Assembly (NCBI RefSeq): GCF_003058225.1
Contig: NZ_QBUG01000006.1
Coordinates: 186,001-250,000, forward strand
Source: Promicromonospora sp. AC04
GTDB taxonomy: Bacteria; Actinomycetota; Actinomycetes; Actinomycetales; Cellulomonadaceae
Reading direction: 5' to 3'
Length of the DNA stretch: 64,000 bases
How positions within the stretch are numbered: the stretch's first letter is position 1; each line of letters starts with the position of its first letter. Below the pieces are notes generated by a model. The model did no database searches. It was not told where the DNA came from and saw only the letters and a list, made by a program, of their open reading frames with translations. Made by a program: the position numbers and the translations under genes. Shown in pieces: positions 45,845 through 52,883 of this stretch.

Positions 45845-47137
45845 CTACAGCAGCGGGCGGAGCGGGATCAGGAGGTATTCGCCGATCTTGGCGACCGCGC
45901 CGCGTTCTTCCCACTGGGCGAGCGTGAGCTCCTGGGCGTTGGACAGGTCCATGGCGAACACGTCCTCCATGCGGCCGGCCAGTCCCGGGTCGACGATCTC
46001 GAGGTTGACCTCGTAGTTGCCCGTGAGGCTGAGCCGGTCGATGTTGGCGGTGCCGATGGTGGTCCAGCGGCGGTCGATGGTGGCGGTCTTGGCGTGCACC
46101 ATGGCGCCCTGGTACAGGAAGATCCGCACGCCGCCGCGCAGCAGGGAGGCGTAGTGGCCGCGGGCGAGCCAGTCGGCGACCACATGGTTGGAGCGGTGGG
46201 GCACCAGGACCCGGACGTCGACGCCGCGTGCGGCTGCGGCGAGCAGCGCGGCGTGGATGTCGTGGTCGGGGATGAAGTACGCCTGGGTGATGTAGACGTG
46301 GCTCGTGGCGCGGTCGATCGCGTCGAGGTAGATCCCGCGGATGGGGAACACGAGCTCGGAGGGTGCGTTGCGCGCGGCCTTGAGGTGGGGCAGCCAGGTC
46401 CCGGAGCCGACGTCGGGCAGGATGGGGTGGCGCGGCTTGCGGTGGCGGTTCCAGAAGTCGACGAACGCGTTGCGCAGCTCCCACACGGACGGTCCTTCGA
46501 GGCGGACGTGGGTGTCGCGCCACTGCGTGGCGTACAGGGAGCCGATGTTGTAGCCGCCGACGAAACCGGTCTCGTCGTCGACCACGAGGATCTTGCGGTG
46601 GTCACGGCCCGAGGTGCGGACGTTGAGGTAGGCGACGCCCGGGCGCAGCACGGGGAAGCGCAGCACGTGCACGCTGGGCGGGAACCGGAAGAACGAGTAG
46701 GGGACCACGAGGTTGGCGAAACCGTCCACGATCACGTAGACGTCGACGCCGCGGGCGGCCGCGTCGATCAGTGCCTGCTTGAAGTCCTGGCCCACCTGGT
46801 CGTTCTTCCAGATGTAGGACTCCAGCATCACGGTCTTGCGCGCCCCGTGGATGGCGTCGAGCATCGCCTCGTAGAGGTCGGCGCCGTAGGTGTAGACAGT
46901 GGTGGCGGTCTCGTCGATGTGCTCGGTGAGCGGCTTCTCCGTGGGGAACTTCGACGTGAGCGGGTGGATGCGCCGTCGGATCTTGTCGGTCACGGTGAGC
47001 GCGACCGCTGCCGCGACCGGCACCGCGGCCGCGATGACCGCCGCGCGGGTCGCGATCGTGCGGGCACGCTGCATGAAGTCGGACGGGATGTCGAGCGTGA
47101 GCTTCGGGAAGCTGCCTGGGATCTTGCGAGGTGCCAC
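45845..47137 (-). CDS. phospholipase D-superfamily protein, cardiolipin-synthase-like
   Basis: A 430-residue protein with one N-terminal membrane segment (about 25-50) and two HKD motifs: H-x-K-x4-D in RDHRKILVVDD (about 178-186) and VHAKTATID (about 355-363). Two HKD motifs with a membrane anchor suggest a cardiolipin synthase or related phosphatidyltransferase. The GTG at 47137 is favoured by TACCGT six bases upstream (leaderless); a longer frame reaches 47257 but lacks start signals. Confidence 0.9.
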   Translation of the reverse strand: MAPRKIPGSFPKLTLDIPSDFMQRARTIATRAAVIAAAVPVAAAVALTVTDKIRRRIHPLTSKFPTEKPLTEHIDETATTVYTYGADLYEAMLDAIHGARKTVMLESYIWKNDQVGQDFKQALIDAAARGVDVYVIVDGFANLVVPYSFFRFPPSVHVLRFPVLRPGVAYLNVRTSGRDHRKILVVDDETGFVGGYNIGSLYATQWRDTHVRLEGPSVWELRNAFVDFWNRHRKPRHPILPDVGSGTWLPHLKAARNAPSELVFPIRGIYLDAIDRATSHVYITQAYFIPDHDIHAALLAAAARGVDVRVLVPHRSNHVVADWLARGHYASLLRGGVRIFLYQGAMVHAKTATIDRRWTTIGTANIDRLSLTGNYEVNLEIVDPGLAGRMEDVFAMDLSNAQELTLAQWEERGAVAKIGEYLLIPLRPLL

Positions 47138-47149
47138 GGGTTCACGGTA
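47138..47149 (-). promoter_or_regulatory. leaderless promoter of the phospholipase D gene
   Basis: On the minus strand TACCGT (47149-47144) is followed by six bases and the GTG at 47137. Confidence 0.6.
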
Positions 47150-47258
47150 CCCGGTCTCACGTCCGGGTTCGCGGAATAGCGGCGCACGGGCCGCGCCGGG
47201 CGGTGCCGGGGCAGACCCGAGCGCGCCGGACCCCGCCGGACCGGAAGGCCGCCGCATG

Positions 47259-47801
47259 TCAGTGGAACGTCGTCGCGTAGTAGGTCTGCTGGTCCACGGT
47301 CTCGACGGTGACGTCCTGGGTGCGTTCGAGGTGGCTGCGCAGGTGGTCGGCGAACCGCAGGGAGTCGTCGTTGAACCGGGAGACGTCGTAGGCGCACACG
47401 ACGCGGTTCTCGGCGAGGTGGGCGACGAGGGCGTCGATCATGTCCATGAAGGTGCGCGTGGAGCGCCGGCTCGGGTGCGTGAGCGTGAACCCGATGTACC
47501 AGACCGCGCCGCGCGCGGCGTGCTCGGGGTAGCGGGCGGCATAGTATTCCGGGCTCACCCACGGAACCGCCGCGAGGTCGGTCGCGAGCGTGGTCAGCCC
47601 CACCGCCTGACCTTGCTCGTCACGGGCGAGGAGCTTGGTCACCCGATGGTCGGCCAACTCCTGGTCGAACTCCTCGCGCAGCAGGACGTGCCGGGCGGCG
47701 GCGCGCGTGCGCAACGGTTCGAACGCCTCGAGGTACAGCTCCCAGAAGCGCTGGGCGACCTCGCCCGCCACGGTCGTCTCGAAGGAGATGTCAGCGCCCA
47801 C
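47259..47801 (-). CDS. GNAT-like acetyltransferase, paired with arginine decarboxylase
   Basis: A 180-residue protein that looks like a divergent GNAT N-acetyltransferase: an N-terminal alpha region, a central strand with AVWYIGFTLTHPSRRSTRTFMDMIDAL (in two parts) resembling the acetyl-CoA-binding beta4/alpha3 segment, and a C-terminal VVCAYDVSRFNDDSL. Its GTG (47801) overlaps the decarboxylase gene by 11 bases. If the assignment holds, the substrate could be agmatine or another amine made by the preceding enzyme, but this is inferred from context only. Confidence 0.65.
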   Translation of the reverse strand: MGADISFETTVAGEVAQRFWELYLEAFEPLRTRAAARHVLLREEFDQELADHRVTKLLARDEQGQAVGLTTLATDLAAVPWVSPEYYAARYPEHAARGAVWYIGFTLTHPSRRSTRTFMDMIDALVAHLAENRVVCAYDVSRFNDDSLRFADHLRSHLERTQDVTVETVDQQTYYATTFH

Positions 47802-48297
47802 CGTCGAACGCCTCCCAGCCCGCGCGCCGGTAGGTCGCGACGACCACTGCGCACACGGGCAGCGTCCGGCAGGTGATGCCGATGACCCGCCGGCCCTGGG
47901 AGTGGTAGGAGCCGCCGCGTGTGGCCGAGAGGTCCTCGAGACTGTGCATGAGGTCGGTGGAGACCTGCTCGCGCGACGGGCCTTCGTGCTCGACGAAGAG
48001 GCCCGCACCGCTGCCGTCCTCCCGTCGCGACCAGGCGATCCCCGCCCAGGCCTCGTGCCCCGGGAGGACCGCGTGCGCCCGCGCGTACACGCAGTACAGG
48101 GCGTCCCCGTGGTCGCCGTGCAGCTGTTCCTGACCGTCCACCTCCAGGACCTGGCTGCCGGGAGGGACTATGGAGCTCAGGCGGACGAGGTTGAAGTCGC
48201 TCACGCCCGCGGCGGCGAGGGCGGCGTCGAACGCGGCGAGCGTGGTCCGGCCGGTGCCGGTGCCGGCACTCACGCGGATCGTCAGGGTAGGGGTCAC
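47791..48297 (-). CDS. pyruvoyl-dependent arginine decarboxylase
   Basis: Converts arginine to agmatine and carbon dioxide using a pyruvoyl group made by self-cleavage. The 168-residue proenzyme has the family signature GTGTGRTTLAAFDAALAAAG and the cleavage site RLSSIVPPGS, with Ser41-Ser42 as the expected scissile pair giving a short beta and longer alpha chain; FVEHEG near residue 105 is also conserved. The GTG at 48297 overlaps the hybrid kinase stop (GTGA). Being in one operon with a sensor kinase is unusual. Confidence 0.88.
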   Translation of the reverse strand: MTPTLTIRVSAGTGTGRTTLAAFDAALAAAGVSDFNLVRLSSIVPPGSQVLEVDGQEQLHGDHGDALYCVYARAHAVLPGHEAWAGIAWSRREDGSGAGLFVEHEGPSREQVSTDLMHSLEDLSATRGGSYHSQGRRVIGITCRTLPVCAVVVATYRRAGWEAFDGGR

Positions 48298-51236
48298 GAC
48301 TTCCTCTCAGGGGGGAGTGGTTCGGGTTCGTCGGTGCGACCGGCGACGGCGTCCAGGAGGTCGAGCACGGAGTGGAGGACGGCGTCCGGCGCCGTGCGGC
48401 CCTTGGTGAGGAAGACGGTCCGGCCCAGGCGAAGGTCGTCGCGCTCCTCAGTGCTGACCTCCGCGCCTGAGAACACGACGAGGGGGACCTGCTGCAGGCG
48501 GCCGTCGCGGCGCAGGTCGGCCACGAGCTCCTGCCCGTCGGCGCCCGGGAGCTTGAGGTCGAGGACGACGACGTCCGGCTCGGCGCCGTCTGCGAGAGCT
48601 GCCCGTGCCTCGTGCACCGAGCGCGCCTGCGTGACGACGAGCCCGCCGTTCTCCAGGACCGTCGCCACCACCGTCCGCAGGTCGTCGTCGTCCTCGACGA
48701 CCAGGACCCGGTTGTGGTGCGGCCGCCGGCGGATGACGTCCTGGACGGTCTCGATGAGGCGCTCGGGGTCGACGGGCTTGACGAGCCAGCCGTCGGCCAG
48801 CGCGGCCGTCTCCTGCGCGTCGGCCGGGCGCGTCCCCGACACGACGACGACCGGCACGTCGGCGGTCGCGGCGGACTGCCGCAGCCGGCTGAGCACCTCC
48901 GCCCCGCTGGTGCCCGGCATCGCGAGGTCGAGCACTATCGCGGCGGGCTGGGCCTCCTGGATGACCTCGAGCGCCGCGCCCCCCTCCGTGACGCCGACGA
49001 CGCCGTATCCGCGCTCCTCCAGCACCGTGCGCAGCACCTCGACGACGTACGGGTCGTCGTCCACGACGACCACCCGCGTCGCGGTGGAGGGGTTCACCGG
49101 CGACCCCGCCACGACGGGGATCAGGTGCGGGGTGGCGCGGCGCAGCGTGAACCGGAAGCTCGACCCCCGGCCCTCGCCCTCGCTGACCGCCCACATCCGC
49201 CCGCCGTGCCGCTCGACGATGCTGCGCGCGATGGCCAGGCCGAGCCCGGAGCCGCCTCGCTCGCGCGTGTCGGAGGCGTCGACCTGTTCGAACCGGCGGA
49301 AGACCGACTCGAGCTTGTCCGGCGGGATGCCGCGGCCCTCGTCGTCCACGCGCAGCTCGACGAACTCGCCGGCGGGCGCAGCCGTCACGCGGACGGTGCT
49401 GCCGCGCGGGGAGAACCGCACGGCGTTGCCCAGCAGGTTGGTCAGCGTCTGCACGATGCGCTCGCCGTCCGCACGGACCACCTCCGTGGAGCGGACGGGT
49501 CGCAGGGCGACCCCGACCTTGTTCGCCAGGACCGAGACCTGCTCCACCGCCGCTGACACGAGCGCGTCGACCCGGTGCTCCTCCAGCTCGAACCGAGTGG
49601 TGCTCGCGTTCAGGCGCTCGGTGTCGAGGATGTCGTCCACGAGCCGGCCGAGCCGCTCGCTGCTCGTCAGCGCGATGTGGACCATGCGCGCCGCCTGCTC
49701 GGGCGCGTTGTCGAGAGCGTTGCTGTCGATGAGCCCGAGCGCACCACGGATCGCCGTCAGCGGGGTGCGCAGCTCGTGGCTCACGACAGACACGAACTCG
49801 TCCTTGATGCGCTCCATCTCGCGCCGCTCCGTGACGTCGCGGAAGGCGACGACCGCACCGCGGATGACTCCGTCGTCGCGCAGCGGGCTCGCCGTGACCT
49901 CGACGGGCACCTCCATCCCGTCGAACCGGTAGACGTCCTGCTCGCCTGTGGCCGTGACGCCGTCGCGCAGGGCCTCGGTGATGTAGCAGTGCTCCACCGG
50001 GTGCGGCGTGCCGTCCTCGCCGGGCGCGTGGAAGGTGGCGTGCGCCTCGCGCCCCACGAGGTCCGCGGCGGACGCACCCAGCGTGTGCGCCGCTGCCGCG
50101 TTGAGGAAGGTCACCCGCCCCTCGGGGTCCACCCCGTAGATCCCGTCGGCCACGGACTCCAGCGTCCGCTCGCGCTCGCTCGCGAGCGAGCGCAGCTGCG
50201 CAGTGCGTTCCAGCACCCGCCGCTCGAGCCCTCGGCGCAGCGAGTCGTTGTCCATGACGACCAGGATCTGGCGCACGACGACTGCGACGAGCACGGCGAC
50301 CCACAGCACGTTCGCCACCACCGGGAGCCCCTCGCTCGACTGGATGACGCGCACCAGCGCCGCCGTGAGGAACAGGCAGAACGTCACGACCGTGCCGAGC
50401 ACGGGCGTCCCGTCCTCGGACCTGCTGGTGACCGGGCTGCCGGACGCCGCCGGGTGGCGCGCGGCGAGCGCGATGGCAAGGTAGCCGCCGACCCAGCCCG
50501 CGTCGACGGGGCTGCCGAACGCGAAGCCGTCCGCCGAGGACAGCAGCGCGAAAGCGACGTCGGACACGGCGTACAGGACGAACCCGCCGCCCACCAGCAC
50601 GAGCGGCACCCGCTCGGCGGCGCTCGACCGGGTCAGGACCAGGACCGCGAGGGTGGCGAGCAGGGCGTCGACCACCGGCAGCGCGTAGGCGGTGAGCGCC
50701 GGCTGCGCCTCCCAGGTATTCGTGTCCAGGACGACGGCGAAGAGCGCGATGTACAGGACGGAGCCGCCGACGACCACGCTGTCCAGCAGGATGCGCACCA
50801 GCTCCCGGCCGCGCAGGCGGACGGCCGGGAAGAGCGAGAGGCCGACCACGCCGAGCAGGAGAGCGGCGATGTAGACGGCGTCCCCGGTCTCCGGGTCGCC
50901 GATGAGCCCCGAGTAGACGTTGCCGGCCAGCCCGACGACCCCGCCCAGGGAGAGGAGCCCCCACGCCTTCCGGCGCCGGCCCGTCGACTGCGCCGCGCGC
51001 CAGCCGCAGCTCACCGCCGCGATGACACCCGCGGCGGCGAGCGCCGCGGTGGAGATCAGCTCGCGGGTCTCCTGGGGCAGGGGGCTGGCGAGCAGCAGGA
51101 CGAGCACGAGGATGGAGAGTCCGGCGGCCCAGGACCAGCGCACGAAGCTCTGCCAGGATCGCGCGGTGGCGCCTCCCTGTCGGGAGCTGTGTGTGCGGAG
51201 GGCGCCCTCGCCGACCTCGCCCGGGGCGGCGGTCAC
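48294..51236 (-). CDS. hybrid sensor histidine kinase, multi-TM, PAS, two receiver domains
   Basis: A 980-residue kinase. About ten membrane helices (25-340) form the sensor, followed by a PAS domain (about 365-480; ADGIYGVDPEGRVTFLN), HisKA with His487 in SHELRTPLTAI, HATPase_c (about 590-720; NLLGNAVRFSP, GGSGLGLAIARS), and two receivers (about 735-855, Asp in IVLDLAMPG; about 860-970, Asp in VVLDLKLPG). GTG 51236 overlaps the upstream receiver gene by GTGA; the ATG at 51245 would give a 13-base overlap. The receiver pair suggests a phosphorelay to the stand-alone receivers nearby. Confidence 0.93.
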   Translation of the reverse strand: MTAAPGEVGEGALRTHSSRQGGATARSWQSFVRWSWAAGLSILVLVLLLASPLPQETRELISTAALAAAGVIAAVSCGWRAAQSTGRRRKAWGLLSLGGVVGLAGNVYSGLIGDPETGDAVYIAALLLGVVGLSLFPAVRLRGRELVRILLDSVVVGGSVLYIALFAVVLDTNTWEAQPALTAYALPVVDALLATLAVLVLTRSSAAERVPLVLVGGGFVLYAVSDVAFALLSSADGFAFGSPVDAGWVGGYLAIALAARHPAASGSPVTSRSEDGTPVLGTVVTFCLFLTAALVRVIQSSEGLPVVANVLWVAVLVAVVVRQILVVMDNDSLRRGLERRVLERTAQLRSLASERERTLESVADGIYGVDPEGRVTFLNAAAAHTLGASAADLVGREAHATFHAPGEDGTPHPVEHCYITEALRDGVTATGEQDVYRFDGMEVPVEVTASPLRDDGVIRGAVVAFRDVTERREMERIKDEFVSVVSHELRTPLTAIRGALGLIDSNALDNAPEQAARMVHIALTSSERLGRLVDDILDTERLNASTTRFELEEHRVDALVSAAVEQVSVLANKVGVALRPVRSTEVVRADGERIVQTLTNLLGNAVRFSPRGSTVRVTAAPAGEFVELRVDDEGRGIPPDKLESVFRRFEQVDASDTRERGGSGLGLAIARSIVERHGGRMWAVSEGEGRGSSFRFTLRRATPHLIPVVAGSPVNPSTATRVVVVDDDPYVVEVLRTVLEERGYGVVGVTEGGAALEVIQEAQPAAIVLDLAMPGTSGAEVLSRLRQSAATADVPVVVVSGTRPADAQETAALADGWLVKPVDPERLIETVQDVIRRRPHHNRVLVVEDDDDLRTVVATVLENGGLVVTQARSVHEARAALADGAEPDVVVLDLKLPGADGQELVADLRRDGRLQQVPLVVFSGAEVSTEERDDLRLGRTVFLTKGRTAPDAVLHSVLDLLDAVAGRTDEPEPLPPERKS

Positions 51237-51610
51237 CCGCGCCATCCGAGGAGGCCGGCGATCTGGGCAGGCAGGGTGATCGGGTCGAACGGCTTGGCGA
51301 GGACTCCTGCGACGGCGAGGTCGTCGTAGCGGCGCCGCTCGGCGGGCTGGACCTTGGCGGTCAGCAGGATCACCGGGACGCTGCGTGTGCTGGGGTCCTC
51401 CTGGAGCCGGGCGAACGTGGTGGGCCCGTCCATCGCGGGCATCATGACGTCCAGCAGGACCGCGTCCGGCGGATCGGCGGTGCACAGGGCGACCGCCTCG
51501 GCTCCGCTGGCGGCGACGTCGACTGCCCACTCGGTGGTCATCTCCAGGCCGATCCGTACGACCTCCCGGATCGCCTCCTCGTCGTCGACGACGAGTATGC
51601 GGTGGCTCAT
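51233..51610 (-). CDS. single-domain response regulator (receiver only)
   Basis: A 125-residue receiver with no output domain: VDDEE near residue 9, phospho-acceptor Asp in VLLDVMMPAMDG (about 53), Thr in LLTAK and Lys in VLAKPFDP. It precedes the hybrid kinase with a 4-base overlap and is probably a phosphorelay intermediate. AGGTAG lies upstream of the ATG. It diverges from the REC-PIG-L gene across 190 bases in which I see no obvious promoter. Confidence 0.93.
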   Translation of the reverse strand: MSHRILVVDDEEAIREVVRIGLEMTTEWAVDVAASGAEAVALCTADPPDAVLLDVMMPAMDGPTTFARLQEDPSTRSVPVILLTAKVQPAERRRYDDLAVAGVLAKPFDPITLPAQIAGLLGWRG

Positions 51611-51800: not shown

Positions 51801-52883
51801 ATGACAGACGACACAGACGACATTTCGCCCGGCGCCTGGTCCGCGCTGATCGTGGAGGACGACGTTGACGCGGGGGCATTCACCCGGACTGTGCTCGAGA
51901 AGCATCTTGGGATGCGCACCGTGATGGCCGGCGATGCGGAGAGCGCGCTGGCGGCCCTGCAGGCCGAGAGCTTCGACCTCGTGGTCATCGACGTCGAGCT
52001 GCCCGGGCGTTCCGGCCTGCAGATCCTGCCGGAGGTCCACCAGCTGGCCATGGGCGTCCCAATCATCATCCTGACGGCGCACAAGCGCGTCGACTACGCG
52101 CTGGACGCCTTGCGCGGCGACGTGGACGACTTCCTGGTCAAGCCCGTCGACGTGGAGCTGCTCGTCGAGCGTGCCACCACGCTCGCGCGCCGGGGCCGGG
52201 CATGGCGCGACGCGAACAGCACGAAGACCGTGCTGGCGGTGGGCGCCCACCCGGACGACGTCGAGCTCGGGGTCGGTGGTGCCCTGGCCGCGCACGCGAG
52301 CACCGGGGACCGGCTGGTGATCCTGACGATGTCGGGCGGCTCGGTCGGGGGTTATGCCGAGGCGCGCTACCTGGAGTCCAAGGCGGCAGCGGAGATGGTG
52401 GGCGCACGGCTGATCCACCTGGGCTTCGAGGACACGCACCTGGACCCGGCGCGGGGCCCCATCACCGCGGTGGAGGAGGTGATCCGGGAGGTCCGGCCGG
52501 ACCGGGTGTACACGCACAGCAACCACGACCGGCACCAGGACCATCGGGCGGTGCATCAGGCGGTCCAGGTCGCATCCCGCGAGGTGGGGGACCTGGCGTG
52601 CTTCCAGAGCCCGTCGTCGACCATCGACTACCGGCCGGACCGGTTCGTGGACATCACCGACCACCTGGAGACCAAGCTGCGGATGCTGCAGGCGTTCGTC
52701 TCGCAGGCGCACCGGCCCTACATGGAGGAGGACATCGTGCGGGCGACCGCACGGTACTGGTCACGGTACGCGCAGAGCCGGTACGCGGAGCCGCTGGAGA
52801 CGGTGCGGTCCACGATGCTGATGCTGCCGGCCGCGGACCGTATGTCCGCGCACGGTGTGCGTGGCGAGCCCGGGTACGTGTGA
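51801..52883 (+). CDS. response regulator fused to a PIG-L/LmbE-type deacetylase
   Basis: A 360-residue two-domain protein. The receiver (about 13-130) has acidic residues in IVEDD, phospho-acceptor Asp64 in VVIDVELPG, Thr92 and Lys114 in FLVKPVD. The PIG-L domain (about 142-345) has the zinc motif AHPDDVELGVGG (His150, Asp152, Asp153) and the late HQDHRAVH motif near 245-252. PIG-L enzymes remove acetyl from N-acetylglucosamine-type groups. Phosphorylation may gate activity. GAGGGGGA precedes the ATG. Overlaps the next kinase gene by GTGA. Confidence 0.92.
   Translation: MTDDTDDISPGAWSALIVEDDVDAGAFTRTVLEKHLGMRTVMAGDAESALAALQAESFDLVVIDVELPGRSGLQILPEVHQLAMGVPIIILTAHKRVDYALDALRGDVDDFLVKPVDVELLVERATTLARRGRAWRDANSTKTVLAVGAHPDDVELGVGGALAAHASTGDRLVILTMSGGSVGGYAEARYLESKAAAEMVGARLIHLGFEDTHLDPARGPITAVEEVIREVRPDRVYTHSNHDRHQDHRAVHQAVQVASREVGDLACFQSPSSTIDYRPDRFVDITDHLETKLRMLQAFVSQAHRPYMEEDIVRATARYWSRYAQSRYAEPLETVRSTMLMLPAADRMSAHGVRGEPGYV

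Follow-up and report, generated by a model that had tools for sequence, protein, structure and literature searches.

What does an actinobacterial operon do that couples a sensory phosphorelay to a small decarboxylase and a GNAT-like protein? The question is raised by a 64,000-nucleotide stretch (hereafter, the window) of the Promicromonospora sp. AC04 genome (6.85 Mb, 26 contigs). Four minus-strand genes encode a receiver, a hybrid histidine kinase, a decarboxylase of the PvlArgDC family (Pfam accession PF01862) and a GNAT-fold protein. A sequence-only reading had described all four genes as overlapping, and the open reading frame coordinates bear this out, with overlaps of 4, 4 and 11 bases. 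With moderate confidence, we propose that the operon encodes a signal synthase together with its receptor, so that an N-acylated amine would be made and then sensed by the adjacent receptor.

Organization of the operon and its products

The first gene (51233..51610, minus strand; ATG at 51610, stop at 51233) encodes a CheY-like stand-alone receiver of 125 amino acids. Residues 5-117 match PF00072 (6.1e-24), and Pfam revealed no output domain. This gene overlaps by 4 bases (51233-51236) with that of the hybrid kinase (48294..51236, minus strand; GTG at 51236, stop at 48294). The kinase contains, in order, an N-terminal multi-transmembrane (multi-TM) sensor domain, a PAS domain, HisKA, HATPase_c and two receivers, all but the sensor being assigned by Pfam, which matched no Hpt domain. 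The HisKA phospho-acceptor domain (49605..49805, minus strand) spans residues 479-545 (PF00512, 1.5e-17). The receivers match PF00072 (2.7e-39) in two stretches, the best of which is the first receiver (48744..49073, minus strand; residues 723-832), and the second lies toward the C-terminus.

The sensor domain (50220..51152, minus strand), whose transmembrane nature was read from the sequence, is unnamed. No Pfam family reaches its cut-off there, and an assignment to HisKA_7TM (PF16927) was rejected, with no match at E 0.1. The domain is homologous to the N-terminal domains of kinases and GGDEF-EAL proteins encoded beside other GNAT or PvlArgDC genes. W64, D124, D198 and R294 are invariant in a 24-row alignment; speculatively, the acidic residues of such a membrane sensor could accommodate a guanidinium ligand. 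A search for sensor paralogs counted at least one such gene in this genome, these counts being lower bounds with five candidates scored per genome.

The decarboxylase gene (47791..48297, minus strand; GTG at 48297, stop at 47791; 168 amino acids) overlaps the kinase gene by 4 bases (48294-48297). Its product scores 94.8 bits against PF01862 (cut-off 22.7; E 6.6e-27) and is the only match to this family in the genome at E values up to 10. It also matches the structure of Methanocaldococcus jannaschii PvlArgDC (PDB 1n2m, E 1e-9), and its closest relative in our tree is from Promicromonospora soli (87% identity). The predicted self-cleavage site, Ser41-Ser42 in the motif NLVRLSSIVPP (codons at 48172..48177, minus strand), aligns with Ser52-Ser53 of the M. 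jannaschii enzyme; the aligned 1n2m sequence has Ala at position 53, as in the S53A proenzyme form. D24, N36, S41, S42 and E103, equivalent to D35, N47, S52, S53 and E109 of M. jannaschii, are invariant in 13 rows; D35, N47 and E109 have known roles in the M. jannaschii enzyme. The strict cleavage motif fits 70 of 80 decarboxylase rows and the second serine is kept in all 80; the ten rows outside the strict motif have Ser-Ser in nine cases and Thr-Ser in one (L126). Judged by its sequence, the enzyme is probably active. Its substrate is likely arginine by family membership, with a score against the NCBI arginine-decarboxylase equivalog TIGR00286 (68.5 bits) that falls below the cut-off of 106.95.

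The GNAT gene (47259..47801, minus strand; GTG at 47801, stop at 47259; 180 amino acids) overlaps the decarboxylase gene by 11 bases (47791-47801) and encodes a predicted N-acyltransferase. Neither Pfam nor NCBIfam matches its product at E 0.01, and sequence comparison with the PDB gave nothing significant (best E 0.035; a profile search likewise gave nothing). An AlphaFold2 model (mean pLDDT 88, pTM 0.84) matched 2oh1 at 2.2e-6 and many other GNATs in Foldseek. On this predicted model the fourth operon protein has a GNAT fold, so that the earlier guess of a GNAT-like protein, to be compared with GNAT structures, holds at the level of the fold. When 23 aligned family members were scanned with an E limit of 10, 8 matched Acetyltransf_1 (PF00583), the best at 4.4e-6, and a relative at L181 matches it at 3e-7, over the cut-off. 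The usual acetyl-CoA P-loop motif of GNATs is Q/R-x-x-G-x-G/A; the stretch aligned to it reads HPSRRSTRTF in the window and HPSYRSSGVF at a locus without PvlArgDC (L068), with Phe in place of the last Gly/Ala.

Foldseek matches also include the acyl-homoserine lactone (AHL) synthases BjaI (5w8g) and TofI (3p2h), at 16% identity and E 4.8e-5, and acetyltransferases score equal to or above these. Because the fold matches include both kinds of enzyme, transfer of either an acetyl or a longer acyl group would be possible. Membership in the LuxI autoinducer-synthase family was considered and rejected for want of profile support: the likeness to BjaI and TofI is one of fold, whereas Autoind_synth (PF00765) is absent from the 15 families matched by any of the 23 GNAT family members (E up to 10).

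A cardiolipin-synthase-like PLD protein (45845..47257, minus strand; PF13091) is encoded downstream and is a possible passenger on the same transcript. Since its open reading frame, as called, begins 1 base past the GNAT stop, the operon transcript may extend into it; the true start may lie further in. The protein scores 222.8 bits against TIGR04265, under the cut-off of 290. A PLD gene follows the unit at seven of eight Promicromonospora loci, at the Myceligenerans locus L096 and at L051; no Isoptericola locus has one there. Divergent from the operon is a gene for a receiver fused to a PIG-L/LmbE-type N-deacetylase (51801..52883, plus strand; PF00072 and PF02585), which also adjoins the operon in four Promicromonospora loci (L076, L088, L089 and L090). 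It is pure speculation that this protein would remove an N-acyl group. A receiver gene, divergent or co-directional, adjoins the unit in 11 of 12 related loci, the exception (L058) being on an 8-kb contig.

Linkage of GNAT, sensor and decarboxylase genes in Actinomycetota

The order was sampled evenly (396 genomes), and we identified the decarboxylase in 14 genomes and the GNAT protein in 31. Every genome with the decarboxylase also encodes the GNAT protein (hypergeometric chance 1.3e-17, genomes taken as unrelated). Kinase, decarboxylase and GNAT genes are collinear in 12 of the 14 genomes, comprising the window and 11 others with 12 loci. G049 and G093 encode PvlArgDC apart from the GNAT and sensor genes. 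One genome (G266) carries two near-identical copies of the unit (L055 and L056) with different kinase continuity on a single 3.67-Mb contig, one lying about 10 kb into the contig and the other about 102 kb short of its end; this pair is possibly an assembly artefact or a duplication. At L059 (G133), PvlArgDC is split over two frames by a frameshift or sequencing error.

By a count that is less circular than a ranking of sensors, though it includes loci used as profile rows, 32 of the 33 GNAT matches in the order sample lie within 2.6 kb of the multi-TM sensor domain seen in the operon kinase, the exception being on a contig of 3,966 bases. The sensor ranking itself is partly circular, since the profile was built from GNAT-linked sensors; 31 of its 35 best matches adjoin a GNAT gene, and the other four all belong to one family (f15). 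These four f15 genomes (L164-L167) encode a close sensor relative with no GNAT gene within about 6 kb, and their sensors could be orphan receptors that listen to others.

The pairing extends to the 17 of 31 GNAT genomes without a PvlArgDC match, save one on a short contig. With iterated profiles, the sensor domain was found beside all 12 GNAT loci read without an adjoining PvlArgDC (L062-L073), and all eight of their sensor proteins scanned by Pfam are GGDEF-EAL proteins. Near PvlArgDC, the domain also occurs in large proteins at seven loci of Acidimicrobiia, unclassified actinobacteria and Pilimelia (L121, L126, L127, L141, L144, L145 and L146); the five scanned are again GGDEF-EAL proteins. 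The output of the sensor thus varies between kinase and GGDEF-EAL while its pairing with GNAT persists.

A phylum-wide sample of 396 genomes provided a test outside the profile training set. It contained 19 GNAT places in 18 genomes, one being the window, and we read the other 18 places, from 17 genomes. All 18 GNAT genes adjoin a sensor gene. Seven have the window-type sensor domain within 1.5 kb, and at the other 11 a 7TM-type kinase gene (about 715 codons) lies 13-213 bases away, two of these being incomplete at contig ends (L190, and L187, of which the C-terminal half is left). Pfam identified a histidine kinase in all five of these kinases that were scanned and HisKA_7TM in four, three of them over the cut-off.

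PvlArgDC is present at one of these 18 loci (L175). At four others (L187, L189, L190 and L191), the GNAT domain is fused C-terminally to an ODC/DapDC-type PLP decarboxylase, assigned by Pfam at L189 and L191 and by eye at L187 and L190. The best NCBIfam match of the fused enzyme is diaminopimelate decarboxylase, below the cut-off. This is the strongest hint that the GNAT protein may act on a decarboxylation product, because a second, non-homologous decarboxylase joins the same GNAT.

Approached from the decarboxylase, a pattern scan of one genome per species (84,980 species) yielded 107 relatives, of which we retained the best 80: 52 from Actinomycetota, 24 from CPR and four others, with L118 assigned by its neighbour genes. 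L097, a Sphaerisporangium cinnabarinum record, has gene positions nearly identical to those of Cellulosimicrobium funkei L098 and is possibly mislabelled. Among the 52 Actinomycetota loci in the best 80 of 107, GNAT lies within 2 kb in 45, the sensor domain within 6 kb in 42 and both in 41. Also within the best 80, two Klenkia and two Virgisporangium loci have a GNAT-PvlArgDC pair with the sensor domain not nearby, and four Actinoplanes loci have PvlArgDC with neither GNAT nor sensor nearby.

The close association of the two enzymes could have another basis. The GNAT protein might be a CoA-binding factor for maturation or feedback of the pyruvoyl decarboxylase and no transferase at all. PanZ is a GNAT-superfamily protein needed for in vivo activation of the pyruvoyl decarboxylase PanD (PMC4410942), a pairing like that of the operon, and a GNAT gene within 2 kb of 45 of the 52 actinobacterial PvlArgDC genes (best 80 of 107) agrees with this precedent. 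Unlike in PanD/PanZ, however, the operon GNAT is tied to a sensor and also occurs without the pyruvoyl enzyme, in 17 of 31 genomes of which all but one, on a short contig, keep the sensor. It is fused in 4 of 18 phylum loci to a PLP enzyme, which needs no pyruvoyl maturation, and the four Actinoplanes loci have PvlArgDC without a GNAT gene nearby. Since GNAT occurs without PvlArgDC and fused to a PLP decarboxylase, we lowered maturation as its main role to a slim chance.

The GNAT protein might also acylate the adjacent sensor or receiver protein, the decarboxylase product then being a cofactor or effector in its own right. No other pair is as constant as GNAT and sensor, and protein N-acetyltransferases, NatD among them, are found in the top Foldseek matches. 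Yet this GNAT is combined with decarboxylases of two unrelated families, in one case within a fusion protein. This favors a small amine as acceptor. The soluble part of the partner also differs (kinase or GGDEF-EAL). We rate protein acylation as highly improbable.

This arrangement recurs too frequently for chance. Its firmer core is the GNAT protein and the membrane sensor, with the decarboxylase as a frequent, exchangeable partner. The sequence-only reading had suggested a sensing system built around agmatine or acetylagmatine. It named a lack of conserved linkage in related genomes as grounds for refutation. Several actinobacterial families, however, link the decarboxylase with GNAT and the membrane sensor, and Saccharibacteria link it with kinase and receivers, so that we regard the suggestion as partly supported; it differs from our reading in the core pair, and agmatine and the acetyl group are candidates for the amine and its modification.

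Candidate sources and possible fates of the amine

The enzymes might instead serve acid, arginine or polyamine balance by producing and acetylating agmatine, with no dedicated signal and with the kinase sensing arginine, pH or the amine to control them. Polyamine acetyltransferases exist among GNATs, and PaiA, which presumably has a polyamine role, is among the fold matches. Acid resistance through decarboxylation of arginine and export of agmatine is known (PMC8503589). Against such homeostasis, the Promicromonospora genome has no match to PF00491 (agmatinase/arginase) or PF04371 (agmatine deiminase), and no antiporter is found among the nine window proteins scanned by Pfam. Moreover, GNAT keeps its sensor in genomes without PvlArgDC, and the sensor domain also has c-di-GMP outputs. 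The absence of arginase/agmatinase-family and agmatine-deiminase matches weakens a role in polyamine synthesis, and because neither family is matched, we would not expect either to consume agmatine in this genome. We consider both the homeostatic role of the enzymes and the corresponding role of the kinase unlikely.

Among 30 genomes examined, PF00491 is present in 11, seven of these at loci where GNAT adjoins PvlArgDC, and PF04371 in one. Because PF00491 genes are present, agmatine may have other fates in those genomes. A different setting is seen at two Chloroflexi loci (L112 and L137), where PvlArgDC is followed by methyltransferase-like and agmatinase-like genes, as read from the sequence, in genomes that contain PF00491. 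This polyamine-type setting contrasts with the sensor setting of the window.

SpeA-like decarboxylases (PF01276) could be a further source of amine. This family is likewise unmatched in the Promicromonospora genome, and we identified it in 12 of the 31 GNAT genomes: in none of the 12 with the linked operon, in both with an unlinked PvlArgDC and in 10 of the 17 free of PvlArgDC, the remaining 7 of these 17 lacking it. The distribution fits an exchangeable amine source and proves nothing; the function of actinobacterial SpeA homologues is described as unknown (PMC8503589).

The decarboxylase also has signalling neighbours outside Actinomycetota. Among the 24 CPR loci in the best 80 of 107, many of which are cut by contig ends, PvlArgDC clusters with a histidine kinase in 16, receivers in 16 and a stand-alone membrane protein in 8. 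The same 24 loci (best 80 of 107) include the GNAT family in 7, an LPG_synthase_C protein, an assignment confirmed on two members, in 12, and either in 15. Four CPR loci (L119, L129, L132 and L142) have none of these counted partners. In Saccharibacteria, decarboxylase, receivers, kinase and GNAT-fold proteins often occur together. L108 and L135 encode a third GNAT-like type, which is also found near PvlArgDC and the sensor in an Acidimicrobiales locus (L146). Since CPR loci share synteny with folD- and murI-like genes, some of the linkage could reflect an ancestral gene order.

Two scanned Saccharibacteria kinases match HisKA_7TM, and other CPR kinases, the L116 kinase among them, are soluble and are preceded by a separate membrane protein. 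The evidence that this stand-alone membrane protein (cluster 7) and the window sensor are homologous is suggestive only, with hhalign at 82% for all sensors and 10% for the kinase subset alone. The 7TM part of the CPR kinases gave no match to the window sensor (hhalign 0.1%).

We built a midpoint-rooted decarboxylase tree of 80 rows, comprising 79 of the 80 named loci (L097 was left out) and the window. The four loci of the best 80 of 107 that are neither Actinomycetota nor CPR, all with neither GNAT nor sensor, and four Patescibacteria (L119, L129, L132 and L133) are separated from the actinobacterial and Saccharibacteria enzymes (97/97). The Virgisporangium and Kineosporia enzymes (L143, L147, L148 and L149) cluster with a Saccharibacteria clade (99/97). 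This grouping suggests gene transfer between actinobacteria and Saccharibacteria.

A candidate signalling pathway and its known counterparts

On the reading that we favor, the operon would provide both the synthase of a signal and its receptor. The pyruvoyl enzyme would cleave itself and decarboxylate a basic amino acid, most likely arginine, to yield agmatine. The GNAT-fold enzyme would then acylate or acetylate the resulting amine, and the multi-TM domain of the neighbouring hybrid kinase would bind the conjugate. The kinase would pass phosphate to its own receivers and to the stand-alone receiver, and elsewhere the same sensor domain would drive GGDEF-EAL proteins instead. Gene order, domain content, the self-cleavage motif and the conserved linkage are observed directly, and the GNAT fold comes from a predicted model. 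We infer from these the substrate, the acyl group, export or release, ligand binding and the output of the operon. Sensing of an internal metabolite rather than a released product is possible.

The adjacency of the presumed synthase gene to a membrane sensor gene, conserved in 32 of 33 cases in the order and 18 of 18 in the phylum, favors a synthase-receptor unit. Against it stand the 17 of 31 GNAT genomes without PvlArgDC, the unlinked PvlArgDC of G049 and G093, the f15 sensors without GNAT, the Klenkia, Virgisporangium and Actinoplanes loci without the full set, the partnerless CPR loci, the PF00491 genes in 11 of 30 genomes and the lack of an Autoind_synth match among the GNAT family members. 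To decarboxylate, acylate and sense remains the most economical reading.

More tentatively, we suggest a wider class in which a pyruvoyl or PLP amino-acid decarboxylase and a GNAT protein make N-acyl-amine signals, each read by a multi-TM receptor of its own that is encoded alongside and acts through a kinase or c-di-GMP. Such a class would possibly span Actinomycetota and Saccharibacteria, and since the tree hints that the decarboxylase gene has passed between them, cross-phylum signalling is possible. Some Saccharibacteria live on actinobacteria. In titles and abstract openings of the open-access literature, we found neither a PvlArgDC-GNAT-kinase unit nor acylagmatine as a bacterial signal, which suggests that, as far as searched, a chemical signalling system of this kind is undescribed. 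Actinobacteria are known mainly for butyrolactone signals, and the proposal, if true, would add a widespread autoinducer-like family to this phylum. A GNAT subfamily and a multi-TM sensor domain, both so far unnamed, would also gain functions, as would these bacterial PvlArgDC genes, and there would be a concrete handle on communication in Saccharibacteria.

Individual parts of the proposed pathway have precedents. The operon decarboxylase resembles M. jannaschii PvlArgDC in its PF01862 family, its Ser-Ser site and its equivalents of D35, N47 and E109. The M. jannaschii enzyme reportedly serves polyamine synthesis, whereas the window enzyme adjoins a GNAT protein and a sensor, scores below the equivalog cut-off and belongs to a genome without an agmatinase-family match. 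The acetylation chemistry proposed for the operon is established in Drosophila, where agmatine N-acetyltransferase acetylates agmatine with acetyl-CoA (PMC5647378). The window GNAT protein has no significant sequence match to any solved structure. To our knowledge, the Drosophila enzyme has no sensor partner. Bacterial precedents for the gene layout are LuxM/LuxN, CqsA/CqsS and LqsA/LqsS, in which the synthase gene reportedly lies next to a gene for a multi-TM, often hybrid, sensor kinase. The operon differs from these systems in chemistry and phylum, and its synthase would consist of a decarboxylase and a GNAT protein; like them, it would place a synthase gene beside a sensor gene.
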